DNA of 24,317 nt. Source: a virus. Below the pieces are notes generated by a model, which searched no databases, was not told where the DNA came from, and saw nothing but the letters and a program-made list of their open reading frames with translations. The translations under genes and the position numbers were made by a program. Positions 3-17,484 of this stretch are shown piece by piece. The stretch's first letter is position 1; the number at the start of each line of letters is the position of its first letter. The stretch is from IMG/VR virus record IMGVR_UViG_3300013127_000031, positions 1-24,317 of that record; one strand, 5' to 3'.

Positions 3-254
3 GGAAATTTTTATTGTTCTAGTAATCAATTAACATCTCTTCAATATTGTCCTTCTGAAGTAAATGGCAATTTTTATTGTTCTAATAATAAATTAACCTC
101 ACTTCAATACTGTCCGTCTAAAGTAAAAGGTGATTTTGTTTGTTATTCTAATAGATTAACATCACTTCAATATTGTCCAACTAAAGTAAATGGTAATTTT
201 TATTGTAATGATAATCAATTAACATCACTAAAAGATATTCATAAATTATTTAAA
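3..254 (+). repeat. Tandem 63-bp coding repeats (LRR units)
   Basis: Four in-frame 63-bp units lie at 3-65, 66-128, 129-191 and 192-254. The first three are very similar at DNA level (shared blocks such as TTAACATCACTTCAATA), not only at protein level. This suggests recent duplication or recombination. The fourth unit decays in its second half. The array may continue to the left of the window. Confidence 0.85.
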
Positions 255-3409: not shown

Positions 3410-4036
3410 ATGTCAATTTTAGTCGCCGTCAGCGGAACCCATGGTTCTGGAAAATCATCAATACTTAACGGGTTAGCTTCAAAGTTCGAAGTTGATGATT
3501 ACAAAGTCTCTCGAGCTGTTCAAGCTGAATTAGGTGTTGAGAACTTACAGGAATTGGTTACTTCTTTCTACAAAATGAAGGCATATCAGGACAAAGTTTT
3601 TGAATACAAGTGGGCTCGTGATAGTGCAATAGCAACAAACGGTTTAGATGATAAAATTGTTTTGACAGAACGTTCATTCTTTGATATCGCAGCTTATACT
3701 GAAGTTTGGTTATCAAGATACAAAAAACTTTCTGCTGACCAACAAATGTGGTGGGAGAACTACAAAGCAAAGTGTATAGAAGCACAACACATCTATAGTG
3801 GGTTAGTTATTGTTCATGCTCATCCTAACATTGATTTTGAATTAGACCCAAATCGTGCAGACGAAGAGTCTCGTTCTCAATTTGAGAACTTGTTGATATC
3901 TTATTCAACTTTGTATGACACAGGAATTCATCGCATTCCAACTAAGAACTTTTATGCTAAGTTGGATGTCTTTTGTGAAGGTAAAGAAGAACGAGTAAAA
4001 CTTGTAACTGACTTTTTGGACCGTTTACATTCATAG
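3410..4036 (+). CDS. P-loop nucleotide kinase-like / AAA_28-type NTPase
   Basis: The N-terminus has a clear Walker A, GTHGSGKS at residues 9-16, directly after the first strand. Residues 87-92 read ERSFFD, like the DRS/ERS motif of deoxynucleoside-kinase-type and AAA_28 (NadR-like) P-loop proteins. A third strand (LVIVHAH, around residues 133-139) is followed by an Arg-containing lid-like stretch. At 208 residues it is a normal size for this class. It may phosphorylate a nucleoside, nucleotide or related small molecule; the substrate is not readable. The ribosome site AAAGGA lies about 13 bp before the start. The -35 box of the next promoter lies in its last codons. Confidence 0.7.
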   Translation: MSILVAVSGTHGSGKSSILNGLASKFEVDDYKVSRAVQAELGVENLQELVTSFYKMKAYQDKVFEYKWARDSAIATNGLDDKIVLTERSFFDIAAYTEVWLSRYKKLSADQQMWWENYKAKCIEAQHIYSGLVIVHAHPNIDFELDPNRADEESRSQFENLLISYSTLYDTGIHRIPTKNFYAKLDVFCEGKEERVKLVTDFLDRLHS

Positions 4037-4052
4037 TCATTAGTGATATAAT
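4024..4052 (+). promoter_or_regulatory. Sigma70-like promoter with extended -10
   Basis: TTTACA at 4024-4029, a 17-bp spacer, and TATAAT at 4047-4052 preceded by TGA. The -35 box lies inside the 3' end of the kinase-like gene. It would drive the exonuclease gene starting at 4093. Confidence 0.8.
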
Positions 4053-4094
4053 GAACTTTGTAACTTCTAAATAAGACAGACAATTTCATTATAT
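4046..4094 (+). other. Inverted repeat joining a -10 box and a start codon
   Basis: ATATAATGAA (4046-4055, contains the -10 box) is the exact reverse complement of TTCATTATAT (4085-4094, contains the first two bases of the ATG at 4093). The 29-bp interior is unpaired. Read-through RNA could hide the start codon in a stem, while RNA from the local promoter lacks the left arm. Confidence 0.5.
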
Positions 4095-4692
4095 GCTAAC
4101 TCTTTACAAATCACTTGCTCCAACATTAGGCTTATGCTTTGACTTTGAAACCTCTGGAAGTTCTTGGGGTAAAGATAGTTCAATAGACCATCAAGCACTA
4201 AGTTTGGGTATGGCTGTGTTCAATACTCGAACTTTTGAAGTAATCGATGACTTATACATCGAGATGAAGTTTGAGGGTGATAAGTATCAATGGTCACCTG
4301 AGGCAGAAGCTATTCATGGTTTGACACGAGAGTATCTTGAACAATACGGCTTGTCTAATGAAGATGCAGTGGTTGCAGTTGGAGAGTTTTTGTTGAAATA
4401 CTTTGGACCTAATCCAACTATTATGGTAATGGGGCACAATGTTGATTATGACCTATTGTTTATGAAACAGTTATTAGGACCGCATGGTATGATGTTTCAT
4501 GTTCATAATGTCAAAATTGATACTGCCGGTGTTAGTTTTGTCAATTTTGTGACATATAAGTCAGACCATTTATTTGAACTAACAGGTGTTGGCGACAGAG
4601 ATACTCATAATGCATTAGCAGATGTCTATATGACAATAGGTGCTGCTAAATTTATGCGAGACTTAGTTGAGACTGCTTTAGTATCTTTATGA
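4093..4692 (+). CDS. DnaQ-like 3'-5' exonuclease (DEDDh)
   Basis: All motifs of a DEDDh exonuclease are visible: D17 and E19 in CFDFETSG, HNVDYD with D120 (H115-D120), and H172/D177 in HNALAD. The 199-residue length fits a stand-alone exonuclease of the RNase T/ExoX/DnaQ-epsilon group. The substrate (RNA or DNA) cannot be read from the motifs. The phage polymerase downstream has its own exonuclease domain, so this enzyme is probably for repair, RNA turnover or nucleotide salvage. It has its own promoter at 4024-4052, no Shine-Dalgarno sequence, and overlaps the next gene by 4 bp (ATGA). Confidence 0.88.
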   Translation: MLTLYKSLAPTLGLCFDFETSGSSWGKDSSIDHQALSLGMAVFNTRTFEVIDDLYIEMKFEGDKYQWSPEAEAIHGLTREYLEQYGLSNEDAVVAVGEFLLKYFGPNPTIMVMGHNVDYDLLFMKQLLGPHGMMFHVHNVKIDTAGVSFVNFVTYKSDHLFELTGVGDRDTHNALADVYMTIGAAKFMRDLVETALVSL

Positions 4693-12127: not shown

Positions 12128-13096
12128 ATGAAAATACTAGTAATCGACGTTCCAAATCTTTTTTATAGAACTGTTGCAGCTCATTCAAATAAGTATGGAG
12201 GAACTATTGAAGATAAGGCAGGGTTAGCACTTCATAGCTGTCTTATAGGTATGAATAAGTGGTACAATAGTATCAAACCTGATCAAGTAGCAGTGGTTTT
12301 TGAGGGTTCTCAGAATTGGCGAAAGACATATACCTCAAGCAGTCAGTGTCATTCAAAGACACTTTATAAAGGTAATCGTGTCAAAGATCCAAGTATGGAA
12401 CATTTGTTTGACGTTATCAACGACTTTGAAAAACTTGCACGAGAACATACTTCAATAGTATGTCTTTCTGCTCCTGAGCTTGAAGGTGACGACTTGATTG
12501 CAGGTGTCACTCAAAAGTTTGCATCAAATGGTGATGAAGTAGTGATATTGTCAGGAGATAAAGACTTCAAACAATTGCTCAAGTATTCCAATGTATCACT
12601 TATCAATCCTGATGATGGTAAAGCACGTCAGTGTGATGATCCTGAGTACTTTATGTTTGAAAAAGCAATTCGTGGTGATACTGGTGATAATGTAAGATCT
12701 GCATTTCCACGAGTTAGAACAACCCGTTTAGAAAAAGCATTTCGAGACCCTTATGAAATGACACTTTTGATGAATGAAACTTGGTCTATGCCTGATCCTG
12801 TTTCTGGTGAAAAAAGAACTTTCATGGTTCGTGATTTGTTTGAAGAAAATCAGTTGCTCATGAACTTAGAAAAACAACCTGACGAAATCAAACAAATCAT
12901 AAACGAAACAATTGAACATGGTTTTGCAACTCATGGCAAGTTTTCGTTATTTGCTTTTACTAAGTTTTTAGGTCAGCATGGTCTAAAACAAATTGGCGAT
13001 AACTCTCAAAAATTTGTCAATTTGCTAAGTTGCAAACCACCAGGGGGAGGAACTTCTAATACTATGCCAATAAAGAAAGGAATACTAACATTCTAA
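12128..13096 (+). CDS. rnh: RNase H / 5'-3' flap exonuclease (T4 Rnh-like)
   Basis: A PIN/FEN-fold nuclease of 322 residues (T4 Rnh 305), which removes RNA primers from Okazaki fragments. The metal-binding acids are visible in order: D7 (VIDVPN), E119-D121-D122 (ELEGDD), D144/D146 (SGDKD), D184/D187 (RGDTGDN). The NWRKTY and YKGNR basic segments fit the DNA-binding arch. The C-terminus ends in a Gly/Pro-rich linker and a final hydrophobic GILTF that could contact another replisome protein. No promoter or Shine-Dalgarno sequence is seen, so it likely relies on the upstream operon. Its last four bases are shared with the end of the convergent homing gene. Confidence 0.93.
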   Translation: MKILVIDVPNLFYRTVAAHSNKYGGTIEDKAGLALHSCLIGMNKWYNSIKPDQVAVVFEGSQNWRKTYTSSSQCHSKTLYKGNRVKDPSMEHLFDVINDFEKLAREHTSIVCLSAPELEGDDLIAGVTQKFASNGDEVVILSGDKDFKQLLKYSNVSLINPDDGKARQCDDPEYFMFEKAIRGDTGDNVRSAFPRVRTTRLEKAFRDPYEMTLLMNETWSMPDPVSGEKRTFMVRDLFEENQLLMNLEKQPDEIKQIINETIEHGFATHGKFSLFAFTKFLGQHGLKQIGDNSQKFVNLLSCKPPGGGTSNTMPIKKGILTF

Positions 13097-13974
13097 AAAT
13101 ATCTATCTAATACTATCCAGTCTTTTGAAGGTCCTGAAAGAACTGGATTAGTATTTTTCTTCTGAGCTTTATATCGTAGAACTGAATATGCTAATGAATG
13201 TTTTTTGCAAAAATTACTAATTGCTTTAGTAGTATGTATTTCTCCATTTGGAGACTGAAGAACCCAAGTAGCAGCTTTCCAATGATTTCCGTTTGATAAA
13301 GTATTACTCATTTTTGCTTTTTGTTCTTCAGAGATAGTTTTTCCTCGATGAACATCTCCAATTTTTTGTCGATGCTCTTCTGATTTCGGTTTTCCTAAAT
13401 TTGCTAATCTAATTTTTTCAATTTCTTCTTCACTTTTTATCCTTCCTGTATTCGCAATTGAGATTTTTTCTTTCCATTGTTCGATTTCTTCTTCGGACTT
13501 ATTTGAATATGCTAGTGAAATTTTTTGACCTAATTCTTTTTTAGCTTCATCTGTCATTGGGTTATTTTTTCGCCATTCTTTTAGTTTTTTTATTGAAGAA
13601 ATTTTTTTAGGTTTTCCCTGATGAGCCGCTCCAATTTTTTGTCGATGCTCTTCTGATTTTGATCCTCCACAATAAAACTTATGATTTACATATCCATTTA
13701 GACATAAAGAATGTCTTATGTGTTCTTGAATGTATTCCTGTTCAAATAAAAAAGCGTCTTCACCAGTAAAAAATTCTGCAATCACTTTATATTCAAATTG
13801 GTCATAAAAAGGTTTTACTTTTTTAGAAGAAGAAAAATACGTTATACCTATATCTTCAGTAGATGGGACTTTATTAGCTTCTCGATACCCAATATAAAAT
13901 TCTCCGGTAATCCGGTTTGTTGCAAGATAAACATACGGAAGCACTTTTTTTGATTTATAAATAATTCCAGACAT
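13093..13974 (-). CDS. GIY-YIG homing endonuclease with NUMOD3 motifs
   Basis: This 293-residue selfish endonuclease is the only strong minus-strand gene. The N-terminus has the GIY-YIG variant YVYLATN (residues 14-20) and FYIGYRE with the catalytic-type Arg near 31, and an FLFEQEYI segment with the likely catalytic Glu near 80. The middle has at least three NUMOD3-type DNA-binding repeats (pattern SEEHRQKIGxxHxGKxxS, also SEEEIEKIRLANLGKPK). The C-terminus has a helix-turn-helix-like NUMOD segment (TTKAISNFCKKHSLAYSVLRYK). It is free-standing, not inside an intron. It has its own promoter (14033-14005) and converges with rnh, so it was probably inserted by homing. Confidence 0.93.
   Translation of the reverse strand: MSGIIYKSKKVLPYVYLATNRITGEFYIGYREANKVPSTEDIGITYFSSSKKVKPFYDQFEYKVIAEFFTGEDAFLFEQEYIQEHIRHSLCLNGYVNHKFYCGGSKSEEHRQKIGAAHQGKPKKISSIKKLKEWRKNNPMTDEAKKELGQKISLAYSNKSEEEIEQWKEKISIANTGRIKSEEEIEKIRLANLGKPKSEEHRQKIGDVHRGKTISEEQKAKMSNTLSNGNHWKAATWVLQSPNGEIHTTKAISNFCKKHSLAYSVLRYKAQKKNTNPVLSGPSKDWIVLDRYF
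13109..13158 (+). terminator. Intrinsic terminator for rnh, inside the homing gene
   Basis: AATACTATCCAGT (13109-13121) pairs with ACTGGATTAGTATT (13142-13155) with one bulged base, followed by TTTTTC. It stands 13 bp after the rnh stop. The same bases encode the last residues of the antisense endonuclease. A T5 run on the other strand suggests it may work both ways. Confidence 0.7.
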
Positions 13975-14050: not shown

Positions 14051-14527
14051 ATGGCATCAACACCAAAAACTACAACCGCTCCTGTTTCTTCTTCTATTGA
14101 AACTGGTAAAATTGAAATGAAAGCAACAAATATACCACATATCTTTATGGTTGATATTGACGACTCAGGAATGTATCGTGAATGTGCAATTGTGAAGTTA
14201 TTTGATGATGGATCAATTGCATATGTTCAAATTGACACACTCCATCCAATTGATAAGGCAAGACTGAAAAAAGTTGTTACTAGTATTCATGCGGACAAAT
14301 ACCCTCTCTATGAACTACTTTCACAGGCAAAATTTTCAAATGGACTCAACGCACTAGATTATGTTCATACAAATTTTGTCAAAATCAAACGTCCAAAAGG
14401 AACATCGATGACATCAAATTCAATCTTATCAACTAGCATATTCAAAGATGCGGATCATATGATTGGATCAGATTTTGTCAATCCTGCAGAAGCACTACTT
14501 GATCAAACTACAAAAACGTTCATGTAA
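14051..14527 (+). CDS. Hypothetical protein, 158 aa
   Basis: Unrecognised. The first 22 residues are a Thr/Ser/Pro-rich, probably disordered tail. The core (about 27-110) reads as an alpha/beta fold with FMVDIDDSGMYRECAIVKLFDDGSIAYVQI strands split by short turns. The C-terminus is polar. No catalytic motif is recognised. GGAG lies about 8 bp before the start, which has the CTAATATG context. A TGTAAATAC sequence lies upstream, but its complement is the -35 box of the divergent promoter. Before the homing gene inserted, it probably followed rnh directly. Confidence 0.65.
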   Translation: MASTPKTTTAPVSSSIETGKIEMKATNIPHIFMVDIDDSGMYRECAIVKLFDDGSIAYVQIDTLHPIDKARLKKVVTSIHADKYPLYELLSQAKFSNGLNALDYVHTNFVKIKRPKGTSMTSNSILSTSIFKDADHMIGSDFVNPAEALLDQTTKTFM

Positions 14528-14537
14528 AAGAAAACTG

Positions 14538-14567
14538 TTTACATTTCAATGGACCTTGTGGTATAAT
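14538..14567 (+). promoter_or_regulatory. Sigma70-like promoter with TATAATAATCAT element
   Basis: TTTACA at 14538-14543, an 18-bp spacer, TGG and TATAAT at 14562-14567, continuing as the exact 12-mer TATAATAATCAT to 14573. The -35 box also forms a 7-bp inverted repeat with ATGTAAA at 14522-14528, which includes the previous stop codon. Drives the gene at 14605. Confidence 0.85.
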
Positions 14568-14604
14568 AATCATATAATCAAATTATACCATAAGGTCCAT
14601 TTTT
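14548..14604 (+). terminator. 20-bp terminator hairpin enclosing a promoter
   Basis: 14548-14567 and 14582-14601 pair over 20 positions with a single G-U wobble. The loop is 14 bp, and the right arm runs into TTTT at 14601-14604, directly before the ATG at 14605. As read-through RNA this is a good intrinsic terminator. Its left arm contains the -10 box of the next promoter, so transcripts started here lack that arm. Confidence 0.8.
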
Positions 14605-14985
14605 ATGCCAGATGAAAACGAAGTAAAACTGTATTTTGGACGTAAACCTGAAGGTGCAATGTCTATTGATGATTTGTTCATTGGCTTTTTACAAAAGCAT
14701 CAGTACTTAATTGACCATGCAGTTGATGATTTAGTCGATTGTATCAAAAACTTCTATTTGCCTACTAAAGTTTTTCACACATTCAATCCGCTCATTCCTA
14801 ACTTTATGGATGATGAACCTGCATCTCAACTGATGTGGATGCTCGGACCTGATGGAACACATATCCACATGTGCGAAGATGAACATATGATGGAAAAACT
14901 ATCATTCATGGGACCCGGTGAGGTATTATGCGATGATTATCGTAGCTTTGAACAATTACCAATAAAAGGAAACTATGAAACCTAA
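14605..14985 (+). CDS. Hypothetical protein, 126 aa
   Basis: Unrecognised. It is acidic and predicted alpha/beta, with a helical first half (LFIGFLQKHQYLIDHAVDDLVDCI) and a His/Met/Cys-containing second half (DGTHIHMCEDEHMMEKL). The His-Cys-His-Met cluster could bind a metal, but no known motif fits. The ATG directly follows the T-run of the terminator/promoter hairpin. The only ribosome-site candidate is AAGG in that hairpin's right arm. It overlaps the next gene by 11 bp. Confidence 0.6.
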   Translation: MPDENEVKLYFGRKPEGAMSIDDLFIGFLQKHQYLIDHAVDDLVDCIKNFYLPTKVFHTFNPLIPNFMDDEPASQLMWMLGPDGTHIHMCEDEHMMEKLSFMGPGEVLCDDYRSFEQLPIKGNYET

Positions 14986-15538: not shown

Positions 15539-15596
15539 TCTTACACGGCCTTAGAGCACGGGACATCTACTGTTCCATTTTCATGTGATTTAAGGT

Positions 15597-15639
15597 AACG
15601 GTGCTGAAAAGCCAAAAAACCGAAGGCTTGCACCCCGTT
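15597..15639 (+). ncRNA. Candidate structured RNA in lysozyme leader
   Basis: AACGGTGC (15597-15604) pairs with GCACCCCGTT (15630-15639), leaving a two-C bulge. An inner stem pairs AAGCC (15609-15613) with GGCTT (15625-15629) around an A-rich loop. It is more GC-rich than its surroundings. AGCAC at 15555-15559 could compete for GTGCT. It matches no riboswitch or ribozyme consensus I know. Confidence 0.35.
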
Positions 15640-15724
15640 GGGCAACATAAGAATTACTGTTGATTTATCTGATGAGACTTTTTATGGAGTGCTTGATGCG
15701 AACAAACAATTAGAGAGGGAACAA

Positions 15725-16397: not shown

Positions 16398-16435
16398 ACA
16401 TACGAGAATATGTGTTATAATATATTCTCGTATGT
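16398..16435 (+). terminator. 13-bp hairpin with promoter in its loop
   Basis: ACATACGAGAATA (16398-16410) and TATTCTCGTATGT (16423-16435) are exact reverse complements. The 12-base loop contains most of the extended -10 TGTTATAAT. CACTTTTT follows. It can terminate lysozyme transcripts, while the right arm contains the primase ATG (16432-16434). Confidence 0.7.
16413..16421 (+). promoter_or_regulatory. Extended -10 promoter of primase
   Basis: TGTTATAAT at 16413-16421, in the loop of the 16398-16435 hairpin. A start about 7 bp downstream would give a primase mRNA with only a few bases of leader. No -35 box is apparent. Confidence 0.7.
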
Positions 16436-17484
16436 CACTTTTTACATTATGTATGTCATCAAGCGAGTCGTCTTCTCCTTTTGCATCAAAACTACAAAAC
16501 CTAATTCATACTCATATTCCGCTACATGGGAAAGTATCTGCAACCGGCTTTCAACAAGTAAGGTGTGCATGCTGCAACGACCATTCTCCCCGTGGAGGTT
16601 GGCGAATTGAACCAACTGAAATCATGTATCACTGCTTCAATTGTGGGGTTGTTGGAAGTTGGAAGTTAGGTGATGAATATCTCTCAAAAGAGTTTCAAAG
16701 AATTCTTAAAGAGTTTGGAGTTCCTGAACTTGAACTAAATGAAGCTAAAAGTCATCTATTCTTCAATAAGTCAAAAACTTCCCCTGAAGAGAAAGTTATC
16801 ACATTAGAGACTCTTACTAAAGTTGATCTTTTTACTCCTGAAGTATCTTTACCTGCTAATTCTGTTAGACTTGAGCCAACACTTCATATTCAGGAATGTG
16901 AATTTTTATGGAACAAATATAGACTGTCTGCTAATGACTATCCGTTTTTTGTTAGCACAACTTTGTCAAACCGTGTTATAATACCATTTTATAAACAAGG
17001 GAAATGTATCTATTGGCAAGCAAGAACAATATTGCCACACGAAAATCCAAGGTATCGTAATTGTGAAGTCAAAAAAGATGCTGTGATTTTCAATCACGAT
17101 GAAATCTTTCGTTACTCTGATAAACCACTCTTCATATGTGAAGGTGTCTTTGATGCTATTCATATCAATGGAATAAGCCTTTTAGGTAGTAAGCTCACTA
17201 ATGCTAAGATAGAGCTACTACAAAAATCACGACGAGAACTAATCTTCGTGATTGACAAAGATGCTAATGGACAATCATTAGCACGACGGGTGTTGAAAGA
17301 GGGGCTGGGTTGTATCACATTTGTTACAAATGCCTCCACAACAAAATCAAAAGCTGACATATCATCTCGAATTGTCGAAACTGGCAAAATCTGGACTGTG
17401 TATGAACTCCTTCAAAATAGGATATATGATGAAAAGAAAGCAACACTTTACATAAACTTTTTACCACAACATATAAGGAAATAA
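16432..17484 (+). CDS. 61: DNA primase (T4 gp61-like)
   Basis: Makes RNA primers for lagging-strand synthesis with the gp41-type helicase encoded next. Residues 45-51 (CACCNDH) and 68-71 (CFNC) form the N-terminal zinc-binding domain. The TOPRIM core has FICEGVFDA with E237 and FVIDKDANG with D275/D277. At 350 residues it is close to T4 gp61 (342). The start is uncertain: the ATG at 16432 lies only about 10 bp after the -10 box, so the mRNA would be nearly leaderless; the in-frame ATG at 16453 is an alternative and loses only seven non-conserved residues. It joins the helicase gene without a gap. Confidence 0.93.
   Translation: MSLFTLCMSSSESSSPFASKLQNLIHTHIPLHGKVSATGFQQVRCACCNDHSPRGGWRIEPTEIMYHCFNCGVVGSWKLGDEYLSKEFQRILKEFGVPELELNEAKSHLFFNKSKTSPEEKVITLETLTKVDLFTPEVSLPANSVRLEPTLHIQECEFLWNKYRLSANDYPFFVSTTLSNRVIIPFYKQGKCIYWQARTILPHENPRYRNCEVKKDAVIFNHDEIFRYSDKPLFICEGVFDAIHINGISLLGSKLTNAKIELLQKSRRELIFVIDKDANGQSLARRVLKEGLGCITFVTNASTTKSKADISSRIVETGKIWTVYELLQNRIYDEKKATLYINFLPQHIRK

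Follow-up and report, generated by a model that had tools for sequence, protein, structure and literature searches.

A predicted sigma70-type promoter within a terminator-like hairpin at a viral gene junction

Genes and features at the junction

The DNA window analysed here, the whole of the 24,317-base virus record IMGVR_UViG_3300013127_000031, carries genes for a terminase, a DNA polymerase, an exonuclease, a primase and a DnaB-like helicase. A nucleotide comparison with 50,697 phage records gave no match; among helicases, those of the very large phages XaC1, Phosso, Atu_ph07 and 121Q come closest to its own. Our subject is an element, called element 1, in the 77 bases between the stop codon of one plus-strand gene and the start codon of the next, together with a second element before the primase gene (Table 1). 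The product of the gene upstream of element 1 matched neither a PHROG nor a Pfam entry. The protein encoded downstream belongs to no Pfam or PHROG family, a fold search with it returned nothing significant, and a scan of it against genome contigs found no relatives; its distant homologs in L027-L030 (38% identity) lie in a different context and lack element 1.

Table 1. Coordinates in the window of the two elements, their parts and the adjoining genes
Feature	Position	Strand	Remarks
Upstream gene, ORF of 158 aa	14051-14527	+	final gene ahead of element 1; homologs in 34 viral loci
-35 box TTTACA	14538-14543	+	identical in G001 and G002
Stem left arm, terminator-like	14548-14567	+	12 outer pairs counted across the three versions
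Extended -10 box TGGTATAAT, within left arm	14559-14567	+	identical in G001 and G002
Loop, 14 nt	14568-14581	+	inferred transcription start near 14574, at the usual -10 to +1 distance
Stem right arm	14582-14601	+	pairs with left arm
Likely Shine-Dalgarno TAAGG, in right arm	14591-14595	+	9-nt spacing; AGG in G002, AGGG in G001
T5 run abutting the start codon	14600-14604	+	identical in G001 and G002
Proposed insulated gene, ORF of 126 aa	14605-14985	+	relatives at 98%, 55% and 40%
Element 2, promoter-in-hairpin (arms 16398-16413 and 16420-16435)	16398-16435	+	-10 TATAAT at 16416-16421, then CACTTTTT
Primase gene	16453-17484	+	start by alignment with G001; first in-frame ATG at 16432

An earlier, sequence-only reading of this DNA had placed a terminator, a promoter and a start codon in one folded element here, and the parts that it named are all present: a 20-bp stem with a single G-U pair, a T-run directly before the ATG of the downstream ORF, and a -10 box in the left arm with TTTACA 18 bp upstream. 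What it had not mentioned is that the hexamer TATAAT (14562-14567) is preceded by TG, forming an extended -10 box, and that TAAGG stands in the right arm. The promoter matches at 11 of 12 positions, which places it among the best matches in 10 kb, and its -35 and -10 boxes, spaced within the 16-18 bp of sigma70-type promoters, are unchanged in the three versions of the element described below. The hairpin likewise has the marks of a terminator, in that it carries GGACC/GGTCC near the base of the stem, follows the end of a transcription unit and runs directly into a U-run, though this is only five bases long and is broken off by the AUG.

Three other observations were made elsewhere in the window. 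A homing-endonuclease-like gene on the minus strand (13093-13974; PHROG homing endonuclease, NUMOD3) separates the exonuclease gene from gene 14051 as an insertion and is missing at this place in the close relatives G001 and G002. The stretch at 15550-15650, upstream of a transglycosylase gene, is apparently untranslated, is near-identical in G001 (AAGGTAACGGTGCTGAAAAGCCAAAAAACCGAAGGCTTGCACCCCGTTGGGCAACATA) and has predicted pairing, which makes it a candidate structured RNA; compared with Rfam it gave no match. Finally, a ATAAATAGT motif resembling a T4-type late promoter occurs at about 2420 and 19250, upstream of genes 2469 and 19286, and is kept in relatives.

Conservation in close relatives and comparison with chance

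The collections searched hold three distinct versions of element 1: that of the window, that of G002 (L002/L034), at about 98% protein identity, and that of G001 (L003/L031), 90 kb in length, whose copy of the element recurs identically in four further contigs. All three retain TTTACATTTNNATGGACCNTGTGGTATAAT, the stem, the T5 run and the ATG, and TTTACA-18-TGGTATAAT is present in each, over an evolutionary distance at which the window and G001 versions of the downstream protein share 55% identity. Relatives with the promoter but without the stem, which the sequence-only reading had regarded as evidence against itself, were not seen among these versions, all of which keep both. The same reading had looked to covarying stem changes, and here the outcome is modest, with three distinct sequences offering one two-sided, compensatory change (U-A to C-G in G001) and one G-U pair of the window that is G-C in both G001 and G002. 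Beside that G-C pair, G002 has a single U-U mismatch. The G001 stem contains a 5-nt bulge, with which it still folds to -29.8 kcal/mol and because of which a strict terminator scan misses it. Since random dealing reaches the observed count of two-sided changes in 172 of 500 shuffles, covariation of this stem taken alone is a weak sign; the conservation of its arms, which occupy what is usually free promoter spacer, is a stronger one.

The fold of element 1 is far more stable than its composition would give, at -29.1 kcal/mol against -10.0 in shuffles (z = -6.8). Its stem has the top hairpin score in the window (25.2), and the best of 40 whole-window shuffles reached 20.2; none of these shuffles yielded a scored hairpin overlapping TGNTATAAT, and the pattern TT[GT]ACA-16..18-TGNTATAAT was absent from all of them. 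Shuffles and conservation together rule out a chance palindrome. A search of Rfam found no known RNA family for the element. Two other ideas were tried and rejected: a bidirectional promoter arising from the palindrome, which is not supported, as the minus-strand TGGTATAAT is found in the window and G002 and lost in G001, and weak pairings in two start regions, 503-537 and 4044-4095, which are not kept as such in G001.

Mergers of this type are rare. The loci that we fetched, about 1.17 Mb with partial overlap, contain 287 distinct T-run hairpins, only seven of which lie near or over TGNTATAAT; four of the seven are elements of the window lineage and one belongs to the locus L060. Apart from the two window-lineage elements and L060, the survey gave no further merger of the kind seen in element 1, and it rules out a general use of promoter-in-terminator mergers. 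Our search of the literature on phage promoters inside terminators found nothing on point.

The homologous site in distant relatives and the primase junction

Several of the viral loci with homologs of the upstream gene are on contigs of 150-350 kb, and it is common among them for the gene to be followed by a terminator, found just after the homolog in 21 of 29 distinct loci where shuffles give 2.0, and in 19 of 26 when the window lineage is left aside. L068 and L070 have one a little further downstream, and the cultured Xanthomonas phage XacN1 has a terminator at the homologous site too. In L047, L053, L057 and L072 a separate -10-like box stands after the terminator and before the next gene. 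These relatives end one operon and start another at this site, and element 1 therefore looks like a fusion of the two signals. A separate merger, built another way, is seen in the 48% relative L060, in which TGTTATAAT overlaps the left arm of the terminator stem and the Shine-Dalgarno sequence lies outside the stem.

Two further arrangements were noted among the loci. L069 has a promoter, a terminator and then the next gene at 3441-3500, an order reversed relative to the other relatives and possibly that of an attenuator. On the minus strand of L037 (6951-7016), in G001, an extended -10 box directly precedes a hairpin of 22 bp with T6, and such a promoter would yield a very short terminated RNA.

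Element 2, before the primase gene, reads ACATACGAGAATATGT-GTTATA-ATATATTCTCGTATGT and then CACTTTTT in the window, with TGTTATAAT central, and ACATGTGAATGGGTGT-TATAAT-GTACCTATTCACATGT-CACTTTTT in G001. All 16 of its pairs form in both, and six of them differ by compensatory, two-sided changes, a number reached by 8 of 500 shuffles; a control in which the partner was slid by 1 to 3 columns gave 0 or 1 such changes. The wobbles in the two window elements are G-U and never A-C, as expected for plus-strand RNA. The primase start lies outside the stem of element 2, with its predicted accessibility unchanged, and the T-run begins three bases past the stem; termination is therefore less certain at this junction. 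The mechanism is less clear than that of element 1, and it is possible that element 2 is a DNA operator. At the primase junction of L097, a 52% relative, an ordinary hairpin is followed by a T-rich tail.

The primase genes of many large-phage relatives have a promoter close to the start codon. A sigma70-like promoter stands just upstream of the primase ATG in L084, L088, L090, L093, L095, L103, L111-L154 and L156 (~1411-1455), often as TTGACA-17-TATAAT/TATACT/TACAAT with the -10 box ending 5-7 nt before the ATG. Such a promoter adjoins the ATG at 40 of 68 primase loci, copies and a few weak matches included, as against 4% of all ATGs, and the primase mRNA of those loci is predicted to be leaderless. 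In the cultured Pseudomonas phage vB_Pa-PAC2 (PA5oct-like) the corresponding sequence is TTGACA-17-TATAAT-GTGCGC-GTG, because of which the primase start annotated there (locus position 1552) probably lies too far downstream; in Escherichia phage 121Q the primase leader is normal. The promoter spacer in L137-L154 contains a near-palindrome, ATACTAT-ACAG-ATAGTAT, which touches the -10 box and may be an operator.

Proposed mechanism, rival explanations and known systems

We interpret element 1, with a probability of roughly 0.7, as a fusion of two signals: an intrinsic terminator closing the operon whose last gene is 14051-14527, and a sigma70-type promoter for the unit after it. Polymerase arriving from upstream would make the full hairpin and U5 and would mostly halt there, and in RNA that reads through, the hairpin would bury the region from TAAGG to the AUG and leave it poorly translated. 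Polymerase starting at TTTACA-18-TATAAT would begin in the loop, so that its RNA, lacking the left arm, could not form the hairpin and, as an mRNA with a short leader, would leave the ribosome site exposed. This is in essence what the sequence-only reading had suggested, that read-through RNA terminates or hides the start and local RNA is free, and the suggestion gains from the terminators of distant relatives and from the folding predicted in all three versions; the start site, the termination and the translational block are themselves inferred. Opening the region from -15 to +3 is predicted to cost 17.5-20.5 kcal/mol in the read-through RNA and 4.4-8.8 kcal/mol in the local RNA, modelled with its start some 7 nt past the -10 box, in all three versions. 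By these predictions the ribosome site is paired in RNA from upstream and freed in local RNA, with the AGG itself mostly paired in the local RNA of G002. Because of the position of the element, termination is the better supported half of the mechanism, and the ribosome lock would follow almost unavoidably from the packing.

A broader claim, which we put forward tentatively and at somewhat less than even odds, is that of a two-level insulator in which the same bases may act at once as a terminator, as a promoter of the ordinary vegetative kind and as a lock on the ribosome site, at two junctions in this phage lineage (before 14605 and before the primase gene), a similar merger having arisen separately in the distant L060. 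Within about 77 bases, a phage so equipped could close one operon and open another that is shielded from read-through. The comparative series, with the signals separate in most relatives and merged here and in L060, shows the starting point of such a merger; the compact design could be used for testing as a genetic insulator, and phage hairpins at gene starts are worth checking for promoters inside.

The hairpin might instead act mainly as a timing switch, silencing stage-specific read-through RNA while the local promoter serves another stage and termination plays a minor part, as for the T4 genes e, soc and I-TevI. The geometry equals that of the T4 cases (PMC3014915, PMC2988022) and the predicted occlusion is strong, yet the local promoter resembles a vegetative sigma70 promoter and not the T4 late TATAAATA, ordinary terminators stand at the homologous sites, and the exposed Shine-Dalgarno sequence of L060 indicates that a merger needs no occlusion, so that we regard this explanation as unlikely. 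Slightly less likely again is a DNA operator, at which a phage repressor dimer would bind the palindrome across the -10 box and the RNA hairpin would be incidental. Palindromes do lie on or beside the -10 box of the primase promoter in L093, L095 and L103, and a symmetric operator would also vary two-sidedly; the two window elements, however, have no half-site sequence in common, element 1 is made asymmetric by a 5-nt bulge in G001, the mismatches take the form of G-U on the RNA strand, G001 has lost the palindrome's minus-strand -10, and the T5 run and the position fit terminators. The long, near-perfect intergenic stems of 16-20 bp would also suit an RNase III processing site or an mRNA-stability hairpin between two units, the least probable of the three, as it leaves unexplained the conserved T5, the placement of the -10 box and the terminators at homologous sites.

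A terminator merged with a promoter, as we propose for element 1, has a close mechanistic parallel in T4, where the ribosome sites of genes e, soc, 49 and I-TevI are hidden in an RNA helix and, in the cases of gene e and I-TevI, late-promoter transcripts are made without the 5' strand and undergo translation; Aeh1 mobE and T4 segB are grouped with them (PMC3014915, PMC2988022). Element 1 follows the same logic, with a ribosome site that would be hidden in read-through RNA and translatable in RNA from a promoter in the 5' strand. The T4 type, however, has the late promoter TATAAATA in its left strand and serves timing, whereas element 1 has TTTACA-18-TGGTATAAT, of sigma70 type with an extended -10, and a stem that, at a terminator position, leads into a U-run; the gene and the phage lineage differ as well. 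Because its promoter is not T4 late and because of its terminator character, we consider element 1 a variant of the T4 e-type logic and not a member of that group. The ordinary terminator followed by a promoter in L047, L053, L057, L059 and L072 agrees with element 1 in position and in order of functions; there the two signals lie side by side, whereas in element 1 they have bases in common and the U-run reaches right up to the start codon. The transposase gene of Tn10/IS10 was reportedly found by Davis, Simons and Kleckner in 1985 to be shielded from external promoters at two levels. Element 1 resembles that system in the proposed insulation through reduced read-through and a fold-back hairpin over the start, and differs from it in that the gene protected in Tn10/IS10 encodes the transposase of a mobile element, that separate sequence elements are used there, and that no sequence is shared with the junction described here.
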